Positions 1,119-30,853 of a DNA stretch of 30,853 nucleotides are shown here, piece after piece (the first letter of the stretch is position 1; each line of letters starts with the position of its first letter). Source of the DNA: a virus. The notes beneath the pieces are model-generated. The model saw only the letters and a program-made list of their open reading frames with translations, did no database searches and was not told the origin of the DNA. The DNA lies in the IMG/VR virus record IMGVR_UViG_3300029448_000242, positions 1-30,853 of that record. One strand, 5' to 3'. The translations under genes were made by a program, and so were the position numbers.

Positions 1119-3980
1119 TTATGCAGATTTCAACCCATAACCATTTGCTTGATAGTCAAAAGTTCTTGAAATAGCAGTATCGCTTGAATTATTAAATGTA
1201 ATATCAAAACCATTAACAGATTTATTAGTGACTACAAAATAATCACCTGTTGCCATGTCTTGTCCTGTCACATTAACATTAGGTGTTGCATAGAAAGGAT
1301 TTGTAAAGGTGACACTATAAGTTCCTGCACCACTAGATAAATCATCACCTGTTTCAGTTCTATTCTGTAGATTTAAAGATACTGTTAAACCTTTCACTAA
1401 GGCTCTGGATTGATTATTTAAGCTGATTAGTCTGGCTCTAAATTTAAAAAATTTTCCTCTAAATGTTCCTTGTTGGGCAACTGATGTAAATGTAGATATA
1501 TCACCCAAACTAGTTTCACTAGCACCAATTTGAATATTTGTTCCTGCGTTGGTAGGCAAATTACCATCAAATGGTGCTTTGGCATTTTCAAATAGGTTTT
1601 CACCTCTACCAAAATCAAATAAATCATAGGGGTCGTCAGATACCATATCTAATTGGATTTTAAATGTAGCATCAAAAACAAAGGGTAAAGTAAAGGTAGA
1701 ATTAAAATCATAAAAACCACTACCAATAATATTTTTATTTATACCACCTGTTTCAAAAACAAATCCAGAAGGCACTGCATCAAACAATCCTGTCTTTTCA
1801 TCAAATGTGCTGATTGTGTCTAAAGTGATAACATTATCCCCTGATATTGTTCCTGTTTCTGTTCTTTTAAATGTATTGGTAAATGTTCCTGCAAATGTTG
1901 GGTGTTCTGAAACACTAGAGATAAGCTGATAACCTTGTGCAGTGACGTTTGAAGATACAATCAATGCAGGTTCAAGACTTTCATTTCCTAATTTATCAAT
2001 TGCCTTAATCCCTAAAGTAAAGGGTGGGTCTATTTTATTAAGAATAATACTGTTCGCACTTCTTCTAGGTACACGAACTAAATCAGTAGAATTAAACCAA
2101 GAATAACCACTTGATACTTTTTGATAACGTATTTCATAACTTTCAACATCTAAATCTGCAACAGGCAACCAAGATAATTGCATTTGGTCGCTACCTATTA
2201 ATGAAATACTAAATTCTTGTACGTTTGCAGGTGGTAGGGTTGCACCAATAACTTTATGTGTTCCTGTGACAAAAGAAGATTTAACACCAAGACTATTGAT
2301 TGCTCTTGCTCGTACTTCATAAGTAGCACCATCAATAGCATTTAATAACTGATATTCTAATGCTTTACCTTGAGATAAAATTCTAAAGTCATCAACAACT
2401 GCGTTTCCGTCTTTGTCTAAAGTCTGTTTAACCTCAATCTCAAAATCATCTGCAAAAGAATCTGGTGAATCACCAACAGTAATCAATAATCTAGTAATAA
2501 CTGTACCATCATTATATTCTACTAAATCATCATCTAATGTTATTGATGCAGGTGGTTGAACTGTAAATGGGTCTGGGAATGAAGTATCTGGTACGACTGC
2601 AACTTCTGTTTTTTCGTCAAAAGTGTACCAAGCATCTTGATGTTCTATTAAAGATAAGGCTACTTCAAAAGACGGATTGATTGCCATACCTACAACTCTA
2701 AATGGTTTAGCGGACATTCCTGTAATACTTGAAGTGATTGCCACAATATCACCAATGGCTAAATTCATAGCTGTATAATTAGCTGTTAATTCTAAACCTA
2801 AGTTGTTTCTACTTCTTTGTAAGACAATTTCACCAAACTCTAATGCTTGATAGGGATTAGTAATTGTTGGTAAATCAATAACACCTTCTTGTAAAAAACC
2901 ACCATCCGCAGTCTTTAATGTAGAATGGTCGGTATCATAAACAATCGTATCACTTTGATAATTTTTATCTGGATTAACAAAATTTACTTGTACTCTATTA
3001 TATTTTTCATTTTTTCTTTCACTAGATAGTTTAATACCACCAACAATATTATCTTCATTAAGTGTTAAGACACTTGAGCCTGTTGTTTCTATAATTAATT
3101 TATATTTACCTTGTGCATAAGGTAAAAAACCTCTCATTCCTTTAAGAAGTGTTCTTGTATTGTCTATTAGTTTTTGTCCTGTATCTATAACTGCATTACA
3201 ATCAAATAGATTAATATCACTAGCACCAGAATAAGGTGTCACTTGTGTTGTGGCTATTGTTGATGCGATATAAAAGCTAGGGATATCAATATCAGTAACA
3301 TCAATACCTTTCCCATATCTTGTATTGGTTAAATAATCTAATAAACACCAAGCAGGGTTAGTAGAAAAGGTGGCAGTCTGTGCTACAGAACTTGAATTAT
3401 AACTTACTACTTTTCTTCCTTGAACTAAGGCTTGAATTTTTGGAATACCAATATATTTATCAGCATCCCAAGTAATTCTAAATGCCACATAACACAATCC
3501 AGATAATTTATGGTTAGAAGTCCATGATGTTAATGTTGATAAAAGACTAGATGCTACTTGGCTATCAGTTCCATAAAAAGTCTGAACTTGGATAGTGTCA
3601 CCAAATCGACTATCATTAGAGGTGATAGTGCCACCATCACTAAAAGAACCAGAAAAAGTAACTTCTTTATCTTCAACAAGTATTTTTGTAATTGCATTAA
3701 CTTCACCTTCACATAAGACTAATGCACCATACAGGTATTGATTATCTGTGCCAGATGTTTCTAAAAATACTCTTGTTCCGCCTAATAATCTTGTACCATA
3801 AACAACAGGGATATTAGCATTATTAGATTGTTTATTAACAAGAACTCCTGTTGCTTCTGCATCTTGAGTAAATTCTGGTATTTCTGGTTTAGGTGCTAAC
3901 CAAGATACTGCCTTAGATATGGCAAATCCTGTAATAACAGATTTAATTATTGTTCCAAGTATTGCTGTAAAAAATGCCAT
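1119..3980 (-). CDS. Tail tip / host-specificity protein (lambda gpJ-like)
   Basis: At 953 residues this is the largest gene of the window. The N-terminus has a short hydrophobic helix (residues about 5-28) and then NIPVVYGTRLLGGTRVF, a signature of the tip attachment protein family of siphoviruses. The middle third fits the hub domains of that family (LSSERKNEKYNRVQVNFVNP and LELTANYTAMNLAIGD). Residues about 580-690 look like a fibronectin type III domain (QLSWLPVADLDVESYEIRYQ). The C-terminus is a beta-rich domain ending at ANGYGLKSA. It starts at a TAATG overlap with the gene before it. No separate gpK or gpI homologue lies upstream, so this is a shortened lambda-type tip. Confidence 0.88.
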   Translation of the reverse strand: MAFFTAILGTIIKSVITGFAISKAVSWLAPKPEIPEFTQDAEATGVLVNKQSNNANIPVVYGTRLLGGTRVFLETSGTDNQYLYGALVLCEGEVNAITKILVEDKEVTFSGSFSDGGTITSNDSRFGDTIQVQTFYGTDSQVASSLLSTLTSWTSNHKLSGLCYVAFRITWDADKYIGIPKIQALVQGRKVVSYNSSSVAQTATFSTNPAWCLLDYLTNTRYGKGIDVTDIDIPSFYIASTIATTQVTPYSGASDINLFDCNAVIDTGQKLIDNTRTLLKGMRGFLPYAQGKYKLIIETTGSSVLTLNEDNIVGGIKLSSERKNEKYNRVQVNFVNPDKNYQSDTIVYDTDHSTLKTADGGFLQEGVIDLPTITNPYQALEFGEIVLQRSRNNLGLELTANYTAMNLAIGDIVAITSSITGMSAKPFRVVGMAINPSFEVALSLIEHQDAWYTFDEKTEVAVVPDTSFPDPFTVQPPASITLDDDLVEYNDGTVITRLLITVGDSPDSFADDFEIEVKQTLDKDGNAVVDDFRILSQGKALEYQLLNAIDGATYEVRARAINSLGVKSSFVTGTHKVIGATLPPANVQEFSISLIGSDQMQLSWLPVADLDVESYEIRYQKVSSGYSWFNSTDLVRVPRRSANSIILNKIDPPFTLGIKAIDKLGNESLEPALIVSSNVTAQGYQLISSVSEHPTFAGTFTNTFKRTETGTISGDNVITLDTISTFDEKTGLFDAVPSGFVFETGGINKNIIGSGFYDFNSTFTLPFVFDATFKIQLDMVSDDPYDLFDFGRGENLFENAKAPFDGNLPTNAGTNIQIGASETSLGDISTFTSVAQQGTFRGKFFKFRARLISLNNQSRALVKGLTVSLNLQNRTETGDDLSSGAGTYSVTFTNPFYATPNVNVTGQDMATGDYFVVTNKSVNGFDITFNNSSDTAISRTFDYQANGYGLKSA

Positions 3981-11294: not shown

Positions 11295-12224
11295 CTATTC
11301 TTCAATCAAATTTTCCCACTCTGGGTCGTATGGGATAAAGCTATGGCGGCATCTATATCCGCCTCTATTGATAAATGGGTCAGTTCCAGACTTTCCTGCC
11401 CACCTAGTAGATGCCCATAAATCAATGGCTTCTTGTTCTGAAAACACTTTATTGAGGTTATTTCTACAAAAGGGTCGTGTAGTCACAATATTCGTTCCTG
11501 TATATTTATAATTAGTTATCCCTGCTTCAGCGGCTTTATATTTGGTAAACTGTCCGTCAAACTGCATCAAACTATCGTGTGCCATTTGACTTGCATATCT
11601 TCGCATATTATCGCCATAAATATCAGCGGCATATTTAGACTGTAGTGTTTCTTTCGCTACAGATACTTGTGCCTTGATACTAGCATTGTTGGAGTATCTA
11701 TTTTTGTCTATGAAATCTACAAGGCGATTGATTTCTGTTTCATCACTTCTCTGGTAAACGCCATTTATTTTGGCTCTAATATTTTTTACCATATCTCTGA
11801 AGTCTTTGCCTACAATAGCGGATTGATAAACCTCGTTAGCTAATGTGTCTAGATAGGTGTTGGCAATATCTTCAAACCCACTAAAAGATAAAAACTTTAG
11901 TTGGTTAATGACTTCCAGATTAGGTTTCGTTAATGACTTAAACCTTGCAGGGATAGGTAGTGGTTTAATAAACTTCTGATATTCTTTGATAATCTCATCA
12001 TAGTCACTACGGATAATATCATCTACTTCTGATAGATAGTTTTCTTCAATTAATTTTTTTAGGTTCGGTCTAAGTTGAACTGCTAGTTGGGTGGTTAGCT
12101 TTTCACCACCTGCGGTTGATTTGGTTAAGTCAGCAATAATGTCATCTTCAAGTTTTTTAAGTACGCCAATAACTCTTTGTTCGTGAGTATCAATTAATTT
12201 GTTTAGTATTTCTTGTTTTGCCAT
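11295..12224 (-). CDS. Minor head protein, Mu gpF (MuF)-like
   Basis: This 309-residue, mainly helical protein ends in the MuF C-terminal signature: TRPFCRNNLNKVFSEQEAID, then W.GK.GTDPFINRGGYRCRH. The two cysteines with the RGG..CRH motif are typical of phage head morphogenesis proteins that bind the portal and enter the head in a few copies. The N-terminal two thirds are long amphipathic helices. Portal, small basic proteins, MuF, scaffold and capsid follow one another as in many siphoviruses. The annotated start has the ATG 3 bases past the stop of the gene before it. Confidence 0.87.
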   Translation of the reverse strand: MAKQEILNKLIDTHEQRVIGVLKKLEDDIIADLTKSTAGGEKLTTQLAVQLRPNLKKLIEENYLSEVDDIIRSDYDEIIKEYQKFIKPLPIPARFKSLTKPNLEVINQLKFLSFSGFEDIANTYLDTLANEVYQSAIVGKDFRDMVKNIRAKINGVYQRSDETEINRLVDFIDKNRYSNNASIKAQVSVAKETLQSKYAADIYGDNMRRYASQMAHDSLMQFDGQFTKYKAAEAGITNYKYTGTNIVTTRPFCRNNLNKVFSEQEAIDLWASTRWAGKSGTDPFINRGGYRCRHSFIPYDPEWENLIEE

Positions 12225-12227
12225 TCA

Positions 12228-12506
12228 TCAAATCTTAAAACCTTTTTTCCATGATTGCACTGCCCAATAGGCAGGGGATAGGTTTTTCTGTCCTTTGACT
12301 TTGGCTAATATGGGTCTAAATCTAGCCATAAAACTTCTTTGTCGAGCAGGGATATTTTTCTTAATAGATAGGTTAGGGTCGCCAAATCTGACTATCTGAA
12401 CATTACCTGTAGCTTTATTCTTTACATAAACACCAAACTTTTTTGATTTGCTTGGGGTTCTAAATGGTTTATTCAGCTTAACTTGACGACCTCTATAAAT
12501 AGCCAT
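12228..12506 (-). CDS. DUF6321-like basic protein
   Basis: The protein has 92 residues and is strongly basic. It contains QVKLNKPFRTPSKSKKFGVY, then NVQIVRFGDPNLSIKKN, PARQRSFMARF and AYWAVQSWKKG. The series 'LnKPfrtp...kKf.VYVKn...V..vrFGDPn..iK...p.R..SF.aR....' matches a small family known to me as DUF6321, which occurs near head genes of phages. The usual C-terminal 'RYWSCK.W' is AYWAVQSW here, so a cysteine of the family is missing. It starts at a TAATG overlap. The function is unknown; it may act in the capsid interior or prohead. Confidence 0.7.
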   Translation of the reverse strand: MAIYRGRQVKLNKPFRTPSKSKKFGVYVKNKATGNVQIVRFGDPNLSIKKNIPARQRSFMARFRPILAKVKGQKNLSPAYWAVQSWKKGFKI

Positions 12507-12604
12507 TATTTTTTCTTCCTTTTTTTGTGTGCTGAGTTTTTCATTAATCTACCATCTGGCATATAATGATAACCTCTAGGTGCTTTTTTACGTCTTTTTG
12601 CCAC
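12506..12604 (-). CDS. 32-residue Arg/Lys-rich peptide
   Basis: This tiny ORF runs from GTG at 12604 to TAA at 12506 and is linked to both neighbours (TAGTG before, TAATG after). The middle reads APRGYHYMPDGRLMKN, flanked by AKRRKK and HKKRKKK. The 'aPkGYHyMpdGrLM' core is not random low-complexity sequence and recurs in tiny proteins of marine phages. It sits in the basic cluster between portal and MuF genes. The likely role is in the virion, perhaps binding DNA or capsid; this is inference. Confidence 0.68.
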   Translation of the reverse strand: MAKRRKKAPRGYHYMPDGRLMKNSAHKKRKKK

Positions 12605-12681
12605 TATTTCTTTTTCTTCTTTCTTTTCTTCATCTTCATAGCAGATTTAACTGATTTTGTTTTTCCGTAATGTTTTGGCAT
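12604..12681 (-). CDS. 25-residue Lys-rich peptide
   Basis: ATG at 12681 is preceded by a GGAAAG ribosome site, and the TAG overlaps the GTG of the next gene. It reads MPKHYGKTKSVKSAMKMKKR plus five lysines. Peptides starting MPKHYG with a lysine tail occur in marine phage head clusters. The net charge is extreme for its size. It is probably made by coupled translation with its neighbours. Confidence 0.62.
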   Translation of the reverse strand: MPKHYGKTKSVKSAMKMKKRKKKKK

Positions 12682-12929
12682 ATTACTTTCCTTTCTTTTT
12701 CTTTTTTTTCATAATAGCTTTTTGCAGAGCCATTGGTAGTTTCTTTTGTTTCTTGGTTAGTTTCATTATGCTTCCTTTCTTCGTAATGTTTAAAACATAA
12801 TAGTTCTAACATACCATATCTATAATTAAAACCTATACAGGCAAATTTACCACAAAAGCATTTCTTTTGACCATGTTGTTGATGTGTCCAGTTATAGAAA
12901 TCATTAACTGAAACAGTCTTGCCTTTTAC
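12636..12929 (-). other. Start-less Cys-rich reading frame (possible -1 extension of 12926-13165)
   Basis: Past the stop of the gene at 12926, the -1 frame is open for 97 codons. The first half looks like a real protein: VSVNDFYNWTHQQHGQKKCF then CGKFACIGFNYRYGMLELLC and FKHYEERKH, with four cysteines that could bind zinc. There is no ATG, GTG or TTG before it in frame. The upstream gene ends AAA AAG AAA AAG TAA, so slippage on A-AAG would fuse the two. The last half overlaps two tiny genes with their own ribosome sites. Alternatives are a decayed gene or a start-codon error in the assembly. Confidence 0.4.
12683..12766 (-). CDS. 27-residue Lys-rich peptide
   Basis: ATG at 12766 has a good AAGGAAG ribosome site; TAA lies at 12683-12685. 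The peptide contains MKLTKKQKKLPMALQKAIMK followed by a lysine run ending KGK. The 'KKLP.ALQkAI' core is amphipathic and looks conserved rather than random. It is followed after one base by the 25-residue peptide gene. Like its neighbours it may bind DNA, portal or capsid interior; no evidence separates these options. Confidence 0.62.
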   Translation of the reverse strand: MKLTKKQKKLPMALQKAIMKKKKKKGK

Positions 12930-13165
12930 TTTTTCTTTTTGCGTAAGTCTAAGTCGTGTTTGCGACTACCTCGTAGGAATGAGTTTACTCTACCCATAGA
13001 CCAAGCCGCCATAGGAACTCTGCGACTACCTGCTGATAAAAACGCACCCTGTCCTCTACGATATACTTTTGCTAGTGTTCCATAAGTATATCTCTTTGAT
13101 GCCTTTGCTTTTCTTTTAAGTGTAGCGACTACTGTAGCTGATAAAGGTTTTCTTCTTACTGCCAT
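12926..13165 (-). CDS. Small basic head-region protein (DUF5824-like)
   Basis: The protein has 79 residues and many Arg and Lys. It contains KRYTYGTLAKVYRRGQGAFL, then SRRVPMAAWSMGRVNSFLRG and HDLDLRKKKK. The 'yTygtL.kVy.RG..A........p..WaMaRVNSFl.G.rk.D.DL' pattern matches a small phage family (DUF5824-like, from memory) often found beside packaging genes. The TAATG start is coupled to the gene before it. The A-rich end may allow a -1 frameshift into the Cys-rich frame that follows. The function is unknown. Confidence 0.68.
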   Translation of the reverse strand: MAVRRKPLSATVVATLKRKAKASKRYTYGTLAKVYRRGQGAFLSAGSRRVPMAAWSMGRVNSFLRGSRKHDLDLRKKKK

Positions 13166-13350
13166 TATGCTTTTGTCCTTGAACGCAATAATGACATGGG
13201 GATTCTTTTCCCTGCTTTATACAAAGCTGAAACTCTTTTGATTAATGATGCTCGTCTTGCTCTCTTAGCACCTTTTAGACCTGATAAATATTTCTTGGGT
13301 ACTTTAGTTTTCTTATCTTTAGGAACTCTACGCTTCTTCAATTTCTTCAC
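13165..13350 (-). CDS. Small basic head-region protein (DUF5872-like)
   Basis: This 61-residue protein is about 45 percent Lys plus Arg. It contains KVPKKYLSGLKGAKRARRAS then LIKRVSALYKAGKRIP and SLLRSRTK. The 'kkYlsGlkg..r..Ra..Ikr....Y..Gk.ip' pattern resembles a small phage family (DUF5872-like, from memory). The frame opens with GTG at 13350, inside the portal 3' end; TTG at 13341 has better spacing to the GAGG site, so the real start may be there. It ends in TAATG with the next basic gene. Confidence 0.66.
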   Translation of the reverse strand: MKKLKKRRVPKDKKTKVPKKYLSGLKGAKRARRASLIKRVSALYKAGKRIPMSLLRSRTKA

Positions 13351-14749
13351 CCTCTATTGTTGGTGTTGAAAATTGTCCAATAGTGACTGCCTTTGCGTCT
13401 ATCTCACCATCTATAGTATTAATCTTTTCATCATCATCTACAACTGCTCTAGCGATTTGTTTATCTACTTCTTTTAAGAAACTATCAGATTGAACACCAC
13501 TTGCTTTTGCCATTTGTAAGAACTGTAAGTCGGATGCATAATCTCTAAGGTTGAAACTATCTGGGTAAATGATTTCACCATCAAATTCTCTACCTTGCCA
13601 TTCAGCAAATAACTTCCAGATTTGTTCTTCTGCGTTTTGTAAATAATCAGCTTTCTCACTAAGTCTTGCGTTTAATAATTGAAACTCAGTTTGTAAGGCT
13701 ATGCCAGACTGTATTCTAGCTTCGGTGGCTCTTACTGCACCCATGTGTGTAATTCTATTGATAGATTCTACTTTCATATTGATGTTATTCATTATGCCAT
13801 CTAATGACTGTGAAGATGGTTGAATGAGATAGGGTTTTAAGTTGCTGTCTAAATCTTCTGGCATTTCAATAATAGAACCTGCACCTGCACTAGCTTCTAC
13901 ATTAGGTGTCTTAACTAAACTTGGGTGGTTAGATAATCTGATAAGTTGTTCAATCTCTGAGTAGTCATTGTAAATAGCTTTCTGTAATTCAGCTACATCA
14001 TTCAAATCAGATATACCAATACCTCGTCTTTGAGATTTTTGGTTATATAATATTACAGCAGGAACTTTACCTAGTTGGTTTGGCATTTCATCAATCAACA
14101 TAGGTTTAGAAGTTGAATAGCCTTTTGTAAATTCTGCAACTTTGTAAGTAGTAATATCTTCCATAGTCCAAACTCTAATAGTTGCCATGTCATCAAATAA
14201 ATCTTCTAGTAGTGTTAGTGAGGTTAAAACATATTTACCATTAATGCCTCGTTCAAAGTTCCAATTCAAAACATTCTCTGGAGTATATAAGCTGATGTAG
14301 GGTCGGATATCTAATTGTAATTCTTCTGCTCTTGATTGTGTTTGTACCGCAGGTTTATCTAGCACTGCCCAACAAGTACCATAGATAGATGCGTTCATTT
14401 GCATTTCTCTAACTACATTGTTAAACGACCTGCCATCTAAATCAGCATCATTAATAAAACTATCTAGCTGTTCATCACCTGTTAATGAACCATAGTTTCT
14501 TGTTGGTGGTACTCGGAAAAGGAAAGACGAATAGATTTGCACCACATTCTTACAATGATTGTCAATCGGAGTATTTTCTGCTCGTTTGAGATACTCCTCA
14601 TCAGTTTCTAAAATATATCGGTTAAGCTGATATCCATTCTGGTAATCTTGTCCGCCAAGATAGGACATCAAATGAAAGTGCCAATCGGCAAACTTTTCTT
14701 CATAATGTTTGTGTTTTTGTGTTAAAAATTCTCTACTGTATAATGCCAT
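13328..14749 (-). CDS. Portal protein
   Basis: The 473-residue protein forms the dodecameric ring through which DNA enters. ATG at 14749 overlaps the terminase stop as TAATG and gives MALYSREFLTQKHKHYEEKF; an earlier GTG at 14758 is less likely. Portal features are YLKRAENTPIDNHCKNVVQI (wing), then ISDLNDVAELQKAIYNDYSE and IEQLIRLSNHPSL, and the long helical stem and crown with GIALQTEFQLLNARLSEKAD and AEEQIWKLFAEWQ. The C-terminus is acidic. The order terminase, portal, MuF, scaffold, capsid supports the call. It resembles DUF4055-type portals of marine phages. Confidence 0.87.
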   Translation of the reverse strand: MALYSREFLTQKHKHYEEKFADWHFHLMSYLGGQDYQNGYQLNRYILETDEEYLKRAENTPIDNHCKNVVQIYSSFLFRVPPTRNYGSLTGDEQLDSFINDADLDGRSFNNVVREMQMNASIYGTCWAVLDKPAVQTQSRAEELQLDIRPYISLYTPENVLNWNFERGINGKYVLTSLTLLEDLFDDMATIRVWTMEDITTYKVAEFTKGYSTSKPMLIDEMPNQLGKVPAVILYNQKSQRRGIGISDLNDVAELQKAIYNDYSEIEQLIRLSNHPSLVKTPNVEASAGAGSIIEMPEDLDSNLKPYLIQPSSQSLDGIMNNINMKVESINRITHMGAVRATEARIQSGIALQTEFQLLNARLSEKADYLQNAEEQIWKLFAEWQGREFDGEIIYPDSFNLRDYASDLQFLQMAKASGVQSDSFLKEVDKQIARAVVDDDEKINTIDGEIDAKAVTIGQFSTPTIEGEEIEEA

Positions 14750-15966
14750 TAACTCCACCTCTGGGGTTTACTTGGTGTGAACTGTCTTTTGACAGGATAT
14801 AAATACTCCACTAAATATCCTAATGCATCATTCATGTGGTCGTAATTATTGTCCTTATCTGGCACAGTCGTTCCTTCTTTGTAAATTTGTCTTTCAATGC
14901 TTTTTAACATAGTTTTGCATTTTTTTGCAATAAATAATGTTCTGTCACCTACTCCGTTCTTTAGTTTGGTGTTCACCGCATTTATTCTATCTCTAATCAG
15001 TGGATGATTGTTTCTTACTCGTAAATGAAAACCTGCGTTCTTAAGTATAGCTAAATCAGTGACACCACCTGCTGAAGTTTTCCTTTGTTTTGATGCAGGG
15101 TCTGGATATATAAATATATGCTTATCTTTAAATCTATTTCTGATTTCTTGAACCATTTCGTCAGTATTACTACTGTAGATGACAATTTCATCATATACAT
15201 AAATATTATTTCCTTTTAGTTCAGATATAACTGCGGACATGGGGTCAATGTTAAAGTCCATGCCTATATGGATTTCACTTGTTTCTGGCTTGTAGTCATC
15301 TAAGACGTTTTCTTTTCTATCAAAGTTATAATAAATCTGTCCTGCATAATTAACAAATGATGCCATATATTCTTGATTAAATGTTCTTTCATCTAAGTCT
15401 TGTTTGGCTTGTTGTACTTCTGAAGCTGATACCTGTCCACCATCTAATGTAGTAAATTGAAATGACTTCCATTGTTCATCCTCATTCTCTTTTGTAAATA
15501 GATTATAACTCCAATTACCATAACCTCTGGGTGTACCACAAAATAATGCTGAACCATTCTTATCAGATAAAGTTGGTCGCAATACCTCATACCATGCGTG
15601 TTCTTTTACATCAGCAAATTCATCCATGACAAGAAAATCTAATCCCACACCTCTCAAACTATTTTCATTATCTGCACCTCTTAAAGATATTTCACTGCCA
15701 TTTCTTAATGTTAATCGTAAATCACTATGGTTCAGTTTTTTTAACCATTTATGTTTAGTCATTCGGTCAACTAAATCATTCCAGACTATATCTTTAGCCA
15801 TACGATAAGTGGGTGCTACATACCAAACTTTCTTTTTAGGATATCTGCTAAATTTAGCTAATTCTTGAATACATAAGAATGTCTTACCAAATCTTCTTCC
15901 TGTGATTAATACTCTAAATCTCTTATCACATTCTAGGATTTCTTTTTGAGGATTACTTAATGGCAC
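14749..15966 (-). CDS. terL: Terminase large subunit
   Basis: This 405-residue packaging motor has all parts. The Walker A motif is GRRFGKT (residues 23-29), and Walker B is FLVMDE (111-116) with Glu116 as the catalytic base. The coupling motif CGTPRG is near residue 143. The RNase-H-type nuclease domain follows, with HIGMDFNIDP (Asp237), IYPDPAS (Asp289) and NYDHMNDALGYLVEY near residue 382. The start is GTG at 15966, overlapping the small subunit stop as TAGTG. The protein is at the short end of the family. The packaging mode (headful or cohesive ends) cannot be told from the sequence alone. Confidence 0.95.
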   Translation of the reverse strand: MPLSNPQKEILECDKRFRVLITGRRFGKTFLCIQELAKFSRYPKKKVWYVAPTYRMAKDIVWNDLVDRMTKHKWLKKLNHSDLRLTLRNGSEISLRGADNENSLRGVGLDFLVMDEFADVKEHAWYEVLRPTLSDKNGSALFCGTPRGYGNWSYNLFTKENEDEQWKSFQFTTLDGGQVSASEVQQAKQDLDERTFNQEYMASFVNYAGQIYYNFDRKENVLDDYKPETSEIHIGMDFNIDPMSAVISELKGNNIYVYDEIVIYSSNTDEMVQEIRNRFKDKHIFIYPDPASKQRKTSAGGVTDLAILKNAGFHLRVRNNHPLIRDRINAVNTKLKNGVGDRTLFIAKKCKTMLKSIERQIYKEGTTVPDKDNNYDHMNDALGYLVEYLYPVKRQFTPSKPQRWS

Positions 15967-27225: not shown

Positions 27226-27727
27226 CCCAATCCCCTTCTTTTGTTGGCTCTTTAATTGGTTCTGGTTTAATTAAAGCTGTACTGCCTTGAGGAACTTTAT
27301 CTGGATTTTGTTCCCATAAATCAAGTGCATCTTCACCAATAGATGACATATATGGACAGGGTGTGCCACTCATAATCATAGCATCAAATACTCTTGAGTC
27401 TTGACAAAGAATAGAAACACCTGCAACTTTCATTCCCATTGAATAAAGGCTTCTAGCTAATTTAATTCTTTCACAGTTCATGTCAGTAATGGTGACACCT
27501 GTACTAAACCCAATGACATTAGATTGAATAGCACCACTTACACCAGATTTACAAATATCACTATTGACTATATTGATGGCAGGGGAATTAGCAGTAGGGG
27601 GAGTATTATTAACTACTGTAGAACTAACAGTATTTGTTTCTGCATAAACTTTTTTACTAAATCCTAAACCTATAACTAAAGATATTAAGGCAAAAGAACA
27701 TAGCCATAAAAACCAATCATTTTTCAT
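27173..27727 (-). CDS. Exported/membrane protein with conserved Cys, unknown function
   Basis: The 184-residue protein has an N-terminal signal-type helix (MKNDWFLWLCSFALISLVIG) ending near VYAET, and a C-terminal hydrophobic segment (FGLIALGMLLIF). The middle reads TPPTANSPAINIVNSDICKS, then GVSGAIQSNVIGFSTGVTIT, NCERIKLARSLYSMGMKVAG and DAMIMSGTPCPYMSSIGEDA, with four cysteines. This series recurs in uncultivated marine phages as I recall it. It overlaps the acidic exported protein gene by 53 bases, so the two are probably used together. The function is unknown. Confidence 0.72.
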   Translation of the reverse strand: MKNDWFLWLCSFALISLVIGLGFSKKVYAETNTVSSTVVNNTPPTANSPAINIVNSDICKSGVSGAIQSNVIGFSTGVTITDMNCERIKLARSLYSMGMKVAGVSILCQDSRVFDAMIMSGTPCPYMSSIGEDALDLWEQNPDKVPQGSTALIKPEPIKEPTKEGDWDAIKDFGLIALGMLLIF

Positions 27728-28026
27728 TAGGGTTTAGTTGGAAATACGACTGCGTTTACTTCATCAACAGTAGTCAGTCCTTGGGTTATATCTCTTAATG
27801 ACTGTCTATATGTTTTCCAAGCAGTTGGAATTGTTGCACCTGTTTCTTTTGCTTTAGTGACTATCCAATCAGTTTCATTAAGTAGTGCATCTCTTTTTTC
27901 TCTAAGAAAAGTCATTTTTCTATCAAATTTACCATTATTCCATTCTTGTAATTGTAAATCTGCTTGTGCTTCTTCTTCAGCAGTAAACTGAACACGCACT
28001 CCGTCTATATAATGATATCTTGGCAT
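27727..28026 (-). CDS. Tail fibre assembly chaperone (Phage_tail_APC-like)
   Basis: The 99-residue protein contains FLREKRDALLNETDWIVTKA, then IPTAWKTYRQSLRDITQGLT. The 'Rd.LL.eTDw......p..w..YRq.LRdit' core is that of the phage tail assembly chaperone family. It follows the fibre at 28026-28619 by a TAATG overlap, so it probably helps that fibre fold or attach. Related to the chaperone at 30021-30353 by the same core. Confidence 0.82.
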   Translation of the reverse strand: MPRYHYIDGVRVQFTAEEEAQADLQLQEWNNGKFDRKMTFLREKRDALLNETDWIVTKAKETGATIPTAWKTYRQSLRDITQGLTTVDEVNAVVFPTKP

Positions 28027-30020: not shown

Positions 30021-30353
30021 TTATGCCTCTGGTCTTTCTGGAAATACCACTGCTTCAACATCTGCTACTGTAGTTATTCCGTTAGTAATATCTCTTAATG
30101 CTTGTCTATAAGTAGTCATCTCTGCACTCATAGTTACATCTGATAGTGCATAGAAATCTGTTTCTAATAATAGAGCATTTCTTTTAGCTCTTAAATTAGC
30201 CATAGCACTGTCAAAGGATTGAGGGGGTACAACAAAACTATCACCGACTTGTTCCATACCACAGATAACTGTATCTGCTACTTCTACAAATCCATCTTCT
30301 TGATAAGGTTGTTTTTGTACGACTATATTGTTTTCAATTTTTACCCAAGTCAT
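30021..30353 (-). CDS. Tail fibre assembly chaperone (Phage_tail_APC-like)
   Basis: ATG 30353 overlaps the fibre stop as TAATG and follows GGAAGG, giving 110 residues; a longer frame from 30368 is less likely. It contains VKIENNIVVQKQPYQEDGFV, then LRAKRNALLLETDFYALSDV and EMTTYRQALRDITNGITTV. The 'Rn.LL.eTDf......m......YRqaLRDIt' core matches the chaperone at 27727-28026, but the N-terminal strand domain differs. It should serve the fibre ending at 30353. Confidence 0.83.
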   Translation of the reverse strand: MTWVKIENNIVVQKQPYQEDGFVEVADTVICGMEQVGDSFVVPPQSFDSAMANLRAKRNALLLETDFYALSDVTMSAEMTTYRQALRDITNGITTVADVEAVVFPERPEA

Positions 30354-30853
30354 TATGCTACCTTCCATATTCTTACATCTGTGTAAACTTCTGTTGTTTG
30401 ACTGGCTGCTTGTCCTAGTCCATAATTACTTAAAGCAACACCTGCATAAAATCTAATTTCAAAAACTTTTTGTGCTGAAATCGTAAATCTACTTTTTAAT
30501 TGTAAAGCAGGTTTACCATATAAACTATTTGTAGTGTTACCAATTACTTCATTACTACTGTCAGTAACATTGTATAAGTATGCTTGTATACTAGCGTTAT
30601 TAAGTAAACAAGATAATTCAGCATCAATATAATAAGTACCACTAGGTAAAGTTATTTGATTGGATGACAAAGATGCTCCTGTAATTTCATTTGTTTTAAC
30701 TGTGTTTAAACTTTGTGTATTTATACCTACCGAAGCAGAACCTGCATCAGTTCCACTTGATAGTTCGTGTCTAACGTGAAGTAATTGACTTTCAAAGATA
30801 CCACCACCTGCACCACTTACAGTACCAGTAAAGCTATAGTTATCTGTTTCATC
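30353..30853 (-). CDS. Tail fibre protein, C-terminal part (runs off the right edge)
   Basis: The frame is open from the right edge for 166 residues; an internal start is not expected. It contains DNYSFTGTVSGAGGGIFESQ, then LLHVRHELSSGTDAGSASVG and SSNQITLPSGTYYIDAELSC followed by FTISAQKVFEIRFYAGVALS. It ends VRIWKVA. The 'LpsGtYyi.a........l......' series is a C1q/TNF-like jelly-roll module common at the ends of phage fibres. It may be the missing C-terminus of the gene at 1-458 if the genome is circular, or a separate fibre. Confidence 0.78.
   Translation of the reverse strand, partial: DETDNYSFTGTVSGAGGGIFESQLLHVRHELSSGTDAGSASVGINTQSLNTVKTNEITGASLSSNQITLPSGTYYIDAELSCLLNNASIQAYLYNVTDSSNEVIGNTTNSLYGKPALQLKSRFTISAQKVFEIRFYAGVALSNYGLGQAASQTTEVYTDVRIWKVA

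Follow-up and report, generated by a model that had tools for sequence, protein, structure and literature searches.

A nest of small basic genes beside the portal gene of a pelagiphage-like virus: candidate internal head proteins encoded as separate cassettes

What six very small, strongly basic proteins do for a virus that encodes them among its head genes is the question raised by this locus. The window, which is the whole stretch of DNA that was analysed, is a virus record of 30,853 bases, and its relatives are the Pelagibacter phages HTVC112P, 111P, 026P and 202P (portal identity 57-58%). The order of the genes on the minus strand is terminase, portal, the nest of small genes, MuF, scaffold and major capsid protein. 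On balance, we favour the reading that the nest encodes internal head proteins, polycations that would act at prohead assembly or packaging, be kept in the head and be released with the DNA. The features of the locus are given below in the order of the minus strand.

13328 to 14758, minus strand: portal protein (phrog_145, 5.4e-64), upstream of the nest
13165 to 13350, minus strand: g61, basic protein of 61 amino acids with a GTG start (phrog_38321), which appears to match the N-terminal half of the DUF5824 layout
12926 to 13165, minus strand: g79, basic three-helix protein of 79 amino acids (phrog_28338), the apparent C-terminal half of DUF5824 (PF19141)
12935 to 12941, minus strand: slippery heptamer C AAA AAG close to the 3' end of g79, candidate -1 frameshift site
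12636 to 12935, minus strand: putative extension of g79 in the -1 frame, with a CxC...CxxH zinc-knuckle-like domain (core 12765-12908)
12683 to 12766, minus strand: g27, MKLTKKQKKLPMALQKAIMKKKKKKGK, cassette of 27 amino acids (open reading frame and selection)
12604 to 12681, minus strand: g25, MPKHYGKTKSVKSAMKMKKRKKKKK, cassette of 25 amino acids; the slot holds MPYHYGK.. or MPxGKGTYGSKxGRPPKK.. in relatives
12506 to 12604, minus strand: g32, VAKRRKKAPRGYHYMPDGRLMKNSAHKKRKKK, cassette of 32 amino acids with a GTG start (open reading frame and selection)
12228 to 12506, minus strand: g92, basic protein of 92 amino acids (phrog_7595), apparently related to DUF5754/Tlr6F
11295 to 12224, minus strand: MuF-like minor head protein of 309 amino acids, downstream of the nest

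All six open reading frames described between portal and MuF in the original prediction were found, and their lengths (61, 79, 27, 25, 32 and 92 amino acids) are as claimed. They are indeed highly basic. Lys and Arg make up 25-52% of the residues, compared with a median of 11% for the window ORFs of at least 90 amino acids, the pI is 11-12, and the net charge is +13 to +24 per protein, which sums to about +106 for one set of six. The coupling of the genes by overlaps holds in part: g61/g79, g25/g32 and g32/g92 share 1 nt, whereas g27 and g25 are 1 nt apart and g79 and g27 are separated by a gap of 159 nt, which is occupied by a seventh conserved frame in the -1 phase. The overlap of g61 with the 3' end of the portal gene is 23 nt. 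Promoters and terminators inside the nest are at or below chance level. Elsewhere in the window, two paralogous proteins (27727-28026 and 30021-30368), each adjoining a fibre-like gene, read ..LREKRDALLNETDW..TYRQSLRDITQGLTTVDEVNAVVFPTKP and ..LRAKRNALLLETDF..TYRQALRDITNGITTVADVEAVVFPERP. The C-terminus of MuF looks polymorphic; in HTVC026P (L004, 6926-8752) the protein is lengthened to 608 amino acids and has a metallopeptidase-like motif, YHEFGHHVHQ, which is absent from the 309-residue MuF of the window.

Relatives were compared in a viral contig sample composed of 80 portal-selected and 80 g79-selected contigs. Pooled pairwise dN/dS, calculated by a simple Nei-Gojobori method at high synonymous divergence and with many AAA/AAG changes added by the lysine tails, is 0.135 for g61, 0.087 for g79 and 0.089 for g92, 0.054 for g27 and 0.154 for g32, and 0.238, 0.039 and 0.144 for three versions of the 25-residue slot. 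All six small genes, including those of 25-32 amino acids, are under purifying selection (dN/dS 0.04-0.24). Non-synonymous changes are far rarer than synonymous ones in every nest gene, so the equal frequency of the two that had been named as evidence against the genes was not found. The 1-nt overlaps are kept whichever cassettes adjoin, at the g61/g79 junction in 108 of 111 cases and at the junction of g25-type genes with a 60-residue gene in all 28 adjacent cases. The coding strand is A-rich and the frames are very short, as would be expected of chance lysine-rich frames without a product, but this reading is already contradicted by the selection test (dN/dS 0.04-0.24), by the conserved start/stop overlaps, and by the sequence after g79, which is open in the -1 frame in 21/21 against 0/21. 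We consider it so improbable that it can practically be set aside.

The interval between portal and MuF ranges from 12 to 2755 bp in the 88 loci that have both genes. In these and in further loci, the usual backbone is g61-g79-g92, and the tiny cassettes swap around it. The segment between g79 and g92 has a variable content, consisting of g27, peptides of the MPKHYGK, MPYHYGK or MPxGKGTYGSKxGRPPKK types, g32 and others, as well as a 60-residue protein (phrog_31838), a 47-residue protein (phrog_2423, DUF6496-like) and a 65-residue protein. The cores MPKHYG and APRGYHYMPDGRLM were found again in other contigs, and the 25-residue slot is also filled by MPYGKGTYGSKVGRP-type peptides (93 distinct, in 117 loci). 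The GRPPKK version, the MPQGKGTYGSKRGRPPKK peptide, is presumably AT-hook-like, to judge by resemblance. Two relatives (L014 and L015) have a 237-residue protein (MALSNLYNFPLGLSVQKGL..) inserted between portal and g61, where the nest starts, and other relatives have inserts of 71 or 218 residues between g92 and MuF.

Gene order had been proposed as a check. Besides contigs of the pelagiphage type, Prochlorococcus phage MED4-184 and one T4-like polyprotein have the order g61-g79-g92. In MED4-184, the series g61, g79, 60-residue type and g92 lies directly before scaffold and major capsid protein. The meaning that had been attached to a position beside the portal is not supported by the comparison. 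The nest block is also located upstream of terminase in some relatives, and in isolates the tiny genes, with g61 and g79 where present, follow the lysis gene while g92 is upstream of terminase. The portal-side place is therefore not essential, and the linkage to the head genes is loose. For g92 itself, most loci with a known neighbourhood have it close to the portal or upstream of terminase. Tiny ORFs that are unannotated in MED4-184 (L159) occupy segments 2946-3077, 3103-3174 and 3174-3272, before the g61 homologue; they include the DUF6496-like MPLRKGKSQKIISANIRK.. and MPSHYGSMKPKGKKKKVKKGGKK, with an MPSHYGS ORF among them. Segments that are wholly or partly unannotated in GenBank, in HTVC026P (L155, 5923-6186), HTVC202P (L156, 2590-2860) and HTVC112P (L158, 2760-2865), hold tiny basic genes of the g27, g25 and g32 types. 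The occurrence of the g32 motif in a protein named 'major head protein' in a cyanophage was rejected as proof of a head role, since the match covers 20 residues and the name is a database annotation only.

The seventh frame, the FRAMESHIFTED gene, encodes a Cys-rich domain with a conserved W, CxC and CxxH. It lies in the -1 frame after g79 and runs about 99 codons past the slip, which gives a predicted fusion of about 176 amino acids; towards its 3' end it overlaps g27 and g25, which are read in a different frame. For 40 codons past the g79 stop, the -1 frame alone is open in all 21 distinct stretches. Differences at the three codon positions of its first 20 codons number 372, 449 and 1311; in the portion ahead of the first ATG, pN/pS is 0.18. 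In 26 distinct loci, of which the window is one, the sequence before the conserved part contains no ATG, GTG or TTG, and in the window it has no CTG, ATT, ATC or ATA either. The C-terminus of g79 is R-K-K, encoded with C AAA AAG or A AAA AAG, and with A AAA AAA in two loci (L285 and L286). A slippery heptamer is present in the overlap in all frameshift-type loci, the commonest being C AAA AAG. The classic heptamer, known to be slippery, is A AAA AAG (PMC9307594). In counts not corrected for relatedness, CGN-AAA-AAG is found in 19 of 19 distinct frameshift-type g79 ends, compared with 4 of 47 ends that lack the domain and 0 of 4 in which the domain has its own start. The search for a downstream RNA stimulator gave no common stem, with fold z-scores of +0.4 to -2.7 against simple mononucleotide shuffles. 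The domain matched no meaningful Pfam family and nothing in the phage isolates that were compared.

Because this coding frame has no start and follows a slippery A-rich site, g79 probably has a second form, a g79-zinc-knuckle fusion made by programmed -1 frameshifting. A few ribosomes would slip at (C/A) AAA AA(G/A) near the end of g79 and yield the fusion in a low, fixed proportion, and the fusion is perhaps the copy that contacts a specific partner. The Cys-rich frame could instead be a separate gene, translated from a non-standard start by coupled reinitiation without frameshifting. Such an arrangement has parallels, as the domain has its own ATG or TTG start overlapping the end of g79 in 12 distinct loci and can begin after the portal in loci without g79. 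However, the 26 loci in which the three usual starts are missing and the restriction of CGN-AAA-AAG (19/19 in the frameshift type, 0/4 with an own start) make a separate gene quite unlikely in our view.

The g79 alignment matches DUF5824 (PF19141) in all 21 of its members, the best at 7.7e-18. The window g79 scores 17 bits (E 0.0071), below the cut-off of 25 bits, which is exceeded by g79 relatives with, for example, 37.6, 68.1 and 68.8 bits. Taken alone, g61 has no DUF5824 score. In T4-like phages, the g61-like part corresponds to positions 1-55 of the DUF5824 profile and the g79-like part to positions 63-125, and one T4-like ORF spans positions 1-123 with both parts. The g61 family aligns to the T4-like N-terminal part of DUF5824 with an hhalign probability of 81% (E 1.2e-5; HMM E 3e-5). 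From this division of DUF5824 in the T4-like ORFs and from the profile match of g61, g61 and g79 look like the halves of a single DUF5824 module, joined in the T4-like proteins and encoded by separate genes in the window. The AlphaFold2 (AF2) model of g79 has a pLDDT of 83 and consists of three helices.

The g92 family appears to be related, with lower scores, to a described domain. Thirteen of its 28 members match DUF5754/Tlr6F (PF19058) at E <= 0.1, the best at 1.9e-4, and all are below the curated cut-off of 27.4 bits, the best relative having 21.8 bits. The window g92 does not match the profile, and a close relative in a small contig matches it at 5.9e-6. Domains within larger phage proteins, one annotated XkdF and one ChaB, are also matched by g92, and giant-virus proteins less well. 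The AF2 model of g92 (pLDDT 90) has four strands followed by two helices. In BFVD it matched a CeV-01B protein, with a probability of 0.99 but a TM-score of 0.45, and also a Tunisvirus protein. The chromatin protein Cren7, which tops the Foldseek list, was rejected as a fold relative (E 0.75, TM about 0.28). Neither g79 nor g92 had a match in the PDB by sequence search up to E = 5, or a significant one by Foldseek of the AF2 models. DUF5754/Tlr6F is found in nearly all polinton-like viruses, several virophages, many giant viruses and some phages, and its function is undescribed (PMC4642659). The kinship of g92 with these proteins is putative, with scores below the cut-off.

The homologues in T4-like phages are the most informative about the inside of the head. 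HMMs built from the pelagiphage-type proteins match T4-like proteins with E-values down to 1.8e-26 for g92 (70 ORFs), 5.7e-15 for g79 (35 ORFs) and 3e-5 for g61 (11 ORFs). In phage T4, a 10-residue N-terminal sequence targets proteins to the capsid, and cleavage by gp21 follows L/I-x-E; each of the small, basic internal proteins is present in about 300 copies (PMC9026906). The T4-like (Kyanoviridae-type) sample comprises C48C1, HTVC008M and about 60 distinct related contig proteins with a g92 domain. These g92 homologues open with a few residues such as MKKFKQYIDEG or MKTFKEYE, followed by L/I/V-x-E and then the g92 domain. The residue at which free g92 starts is immediately preceded by [ILV]xE in 50 of 58 distinct homologues (47 if only [IL] is allowed); the background in other ORFs of the same loci is 0.0042 per residue. 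The N-terminus of the window g92, which has no [ILV]xE site of its own, coincides with the predicted protease-released N-terminus of the T4-like homologues. Free-standing T4-like g79 homologues start with sequences such as MINFKKYLDEG, MMKFKAYIAE or MLTFSKYITE. A targeting pattern modelled on IPIII, the fairer of two tests though also written with examples already seen, is found in 9 of 11 free g79 homologues versus 15 of 266 other ORFs (P = 3e-9) and in 9 of 58 g92 homologues (P = 0.02). A looser pattern, fitted after inspection, is present in 35 of 57 g92 homologues versus 18 of 552 other ORFs.

A polyprotein-like T4-like ORF of 1087 amino acids (L668, 22-3282) contains the g61, g79 and g92 modules in this order, with several motifs of the L/I/V-x-E type between them. 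It also carries a zeta-toxin/AAA kinase-like domain (Pfam 4.6e-14), and repeated motifs of the FEAYLNE/FESYLEE type act as separators. Four other T4-like ORFs (L626, L631, L633 and L636; 929-1079 amino acids) have nucleotidyltransferase and cytidylyltransferase regions together with g61-like and g92 parts, the g92 domain standing behind an ITE|A motif. In HTVC008M, g61/g79 are fused to a cytidylyltransferase, and enzymes of this family have been found in cyanophage virions (PMC10665884, PMC9146016, PMC9602691). No g61/DUF5824 part was found in the cyanophages concerned, so their cytidylyltransferases are supportive and were rejected as direct proof of the role of the nest.

None of the six window proteins has a capsid-targeting N-terminus, and a prohead protease was not recognised among the window genes either; the route into the head must therefore differ from that in T4. 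Under the reading that we favour, the nest proteins would enter the prohead alongside the scaffold or the DNA, remain inside the head as small DNA-binding polycations and exit together with the DNA. The small phage would encode directly the mature pieces that T4-like phages obtain by proteolysis. The part of the original prediction that saw internal virion peptides here gains from the T4-like g92 and g79 homologues with their targeting-type N-termini and L/I-x-E sites; the parts that gave weight to the portal-side place and proposed binding to portal or capsid are not supported. For the peptides of 25-32 amino acids, it is neighbourhood and selection that suggest a virion role.

The closest rival is a transient role, in which the nest proteins are late non-virion factors of assembly or packaging, polycations that act for a time at the portal, terminase or scaffold and are not retained. 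The place of g92 near the portal or upstream of terminase in most loci with a known neighbourhood agrees with it, as does the place of the block, which in MED4-184 and in contigs of the pelagiphage type lies between portal and scaffold. The block can, however, be far from the head genes, and the T4-like targeting N-termini and protease-site motifs point to retention in the mature head; we regard a transient role as unlikely. Packing in the head could also serve delivery, the peptides being ejected into the next host to take it over or to inhibit its defences, with exchange driven by those defences. T4 IPI is a precedent (PMC9026906), and the cassettes do turn over among relatives. Against ejected effectors stand the strong conservation of g61, g79 and g92 (dN/dS about 0.1), the apparent kinship of this backbone with families found in giant viruses, which have other hosts, and a Foldseek comparison of the AF2 models that found no effector-like fold. 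With such a backbone and such kin, a structural or DNA-binding role fits better, and delivery of effectors seems very unlikely. A wider proposal about internal head proteins is tentative, and we hold it for somewhat less than probable. DUF5824 and the DUF5754/Tlr6F-like domain, families that occur in phages, giant viruses, virophages and polinton-like viruses, would be genome-associated internal capsid proteins in general, which T4-like phages release from tagged precursors or polyproteins by the prohead protease, and which small pelagiphages encode as an array of mature cassettes, setting the dose of zinc-knuckle DUF5824 by -1 frameshifting.

If the favoured reading is true, internal head proteins also serve small phages of SAR11-type hosts, taken apart into exchangeable genes of 25-92 codons, and several of these genes lack an annotation in published isolates. 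From the targeting and cut-site patterns of the T4-like proteins, the DUF5754/Tlr6F-like domain gains a concrete candidate role, packing inside the head, and g79 becomes a likely case of programmed frameshifting in the head region. We found no description, in the open-licence literature, of the split, untagged cassette version, of the frameshifted zinc form or of a connection between capsid targeting and the two domains, DUF5824 and Tlr6F-like, and an earlier account may exist.

Internal head proteins are a known kind. With lambda G/GT, the locus would share a -1 slip late in a short gene, from which a minor, C-terminally extended product arises; there the products are tail assembly chaperones, whereas here the proteins and their place are others and the extension, read from sequence alone, carries CxC..CxxH. 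The phage cluster of MED4-184 and P-HS2 has the same series of families, phrog_38321, phrog_28338, phrog_31838 and phrog_7595 (g61, g79, a small gene and g92), before scaffold and major capsid protein, and, unlike in the window, no zinc-knuckle frame was found in it. The likeness to IPI, IPII, IPIII and Alt of T4 lies in the small, basic character of the proteins and in the targeting and L/I/V-x-E patterns of the T4-like g79 and g92 homologues. The internal proteins of T4 are tagged and processed by gp21, whereas the versions of the small phage are untagged, have the mature length and are encoded by genes that overlap by 1 nt.
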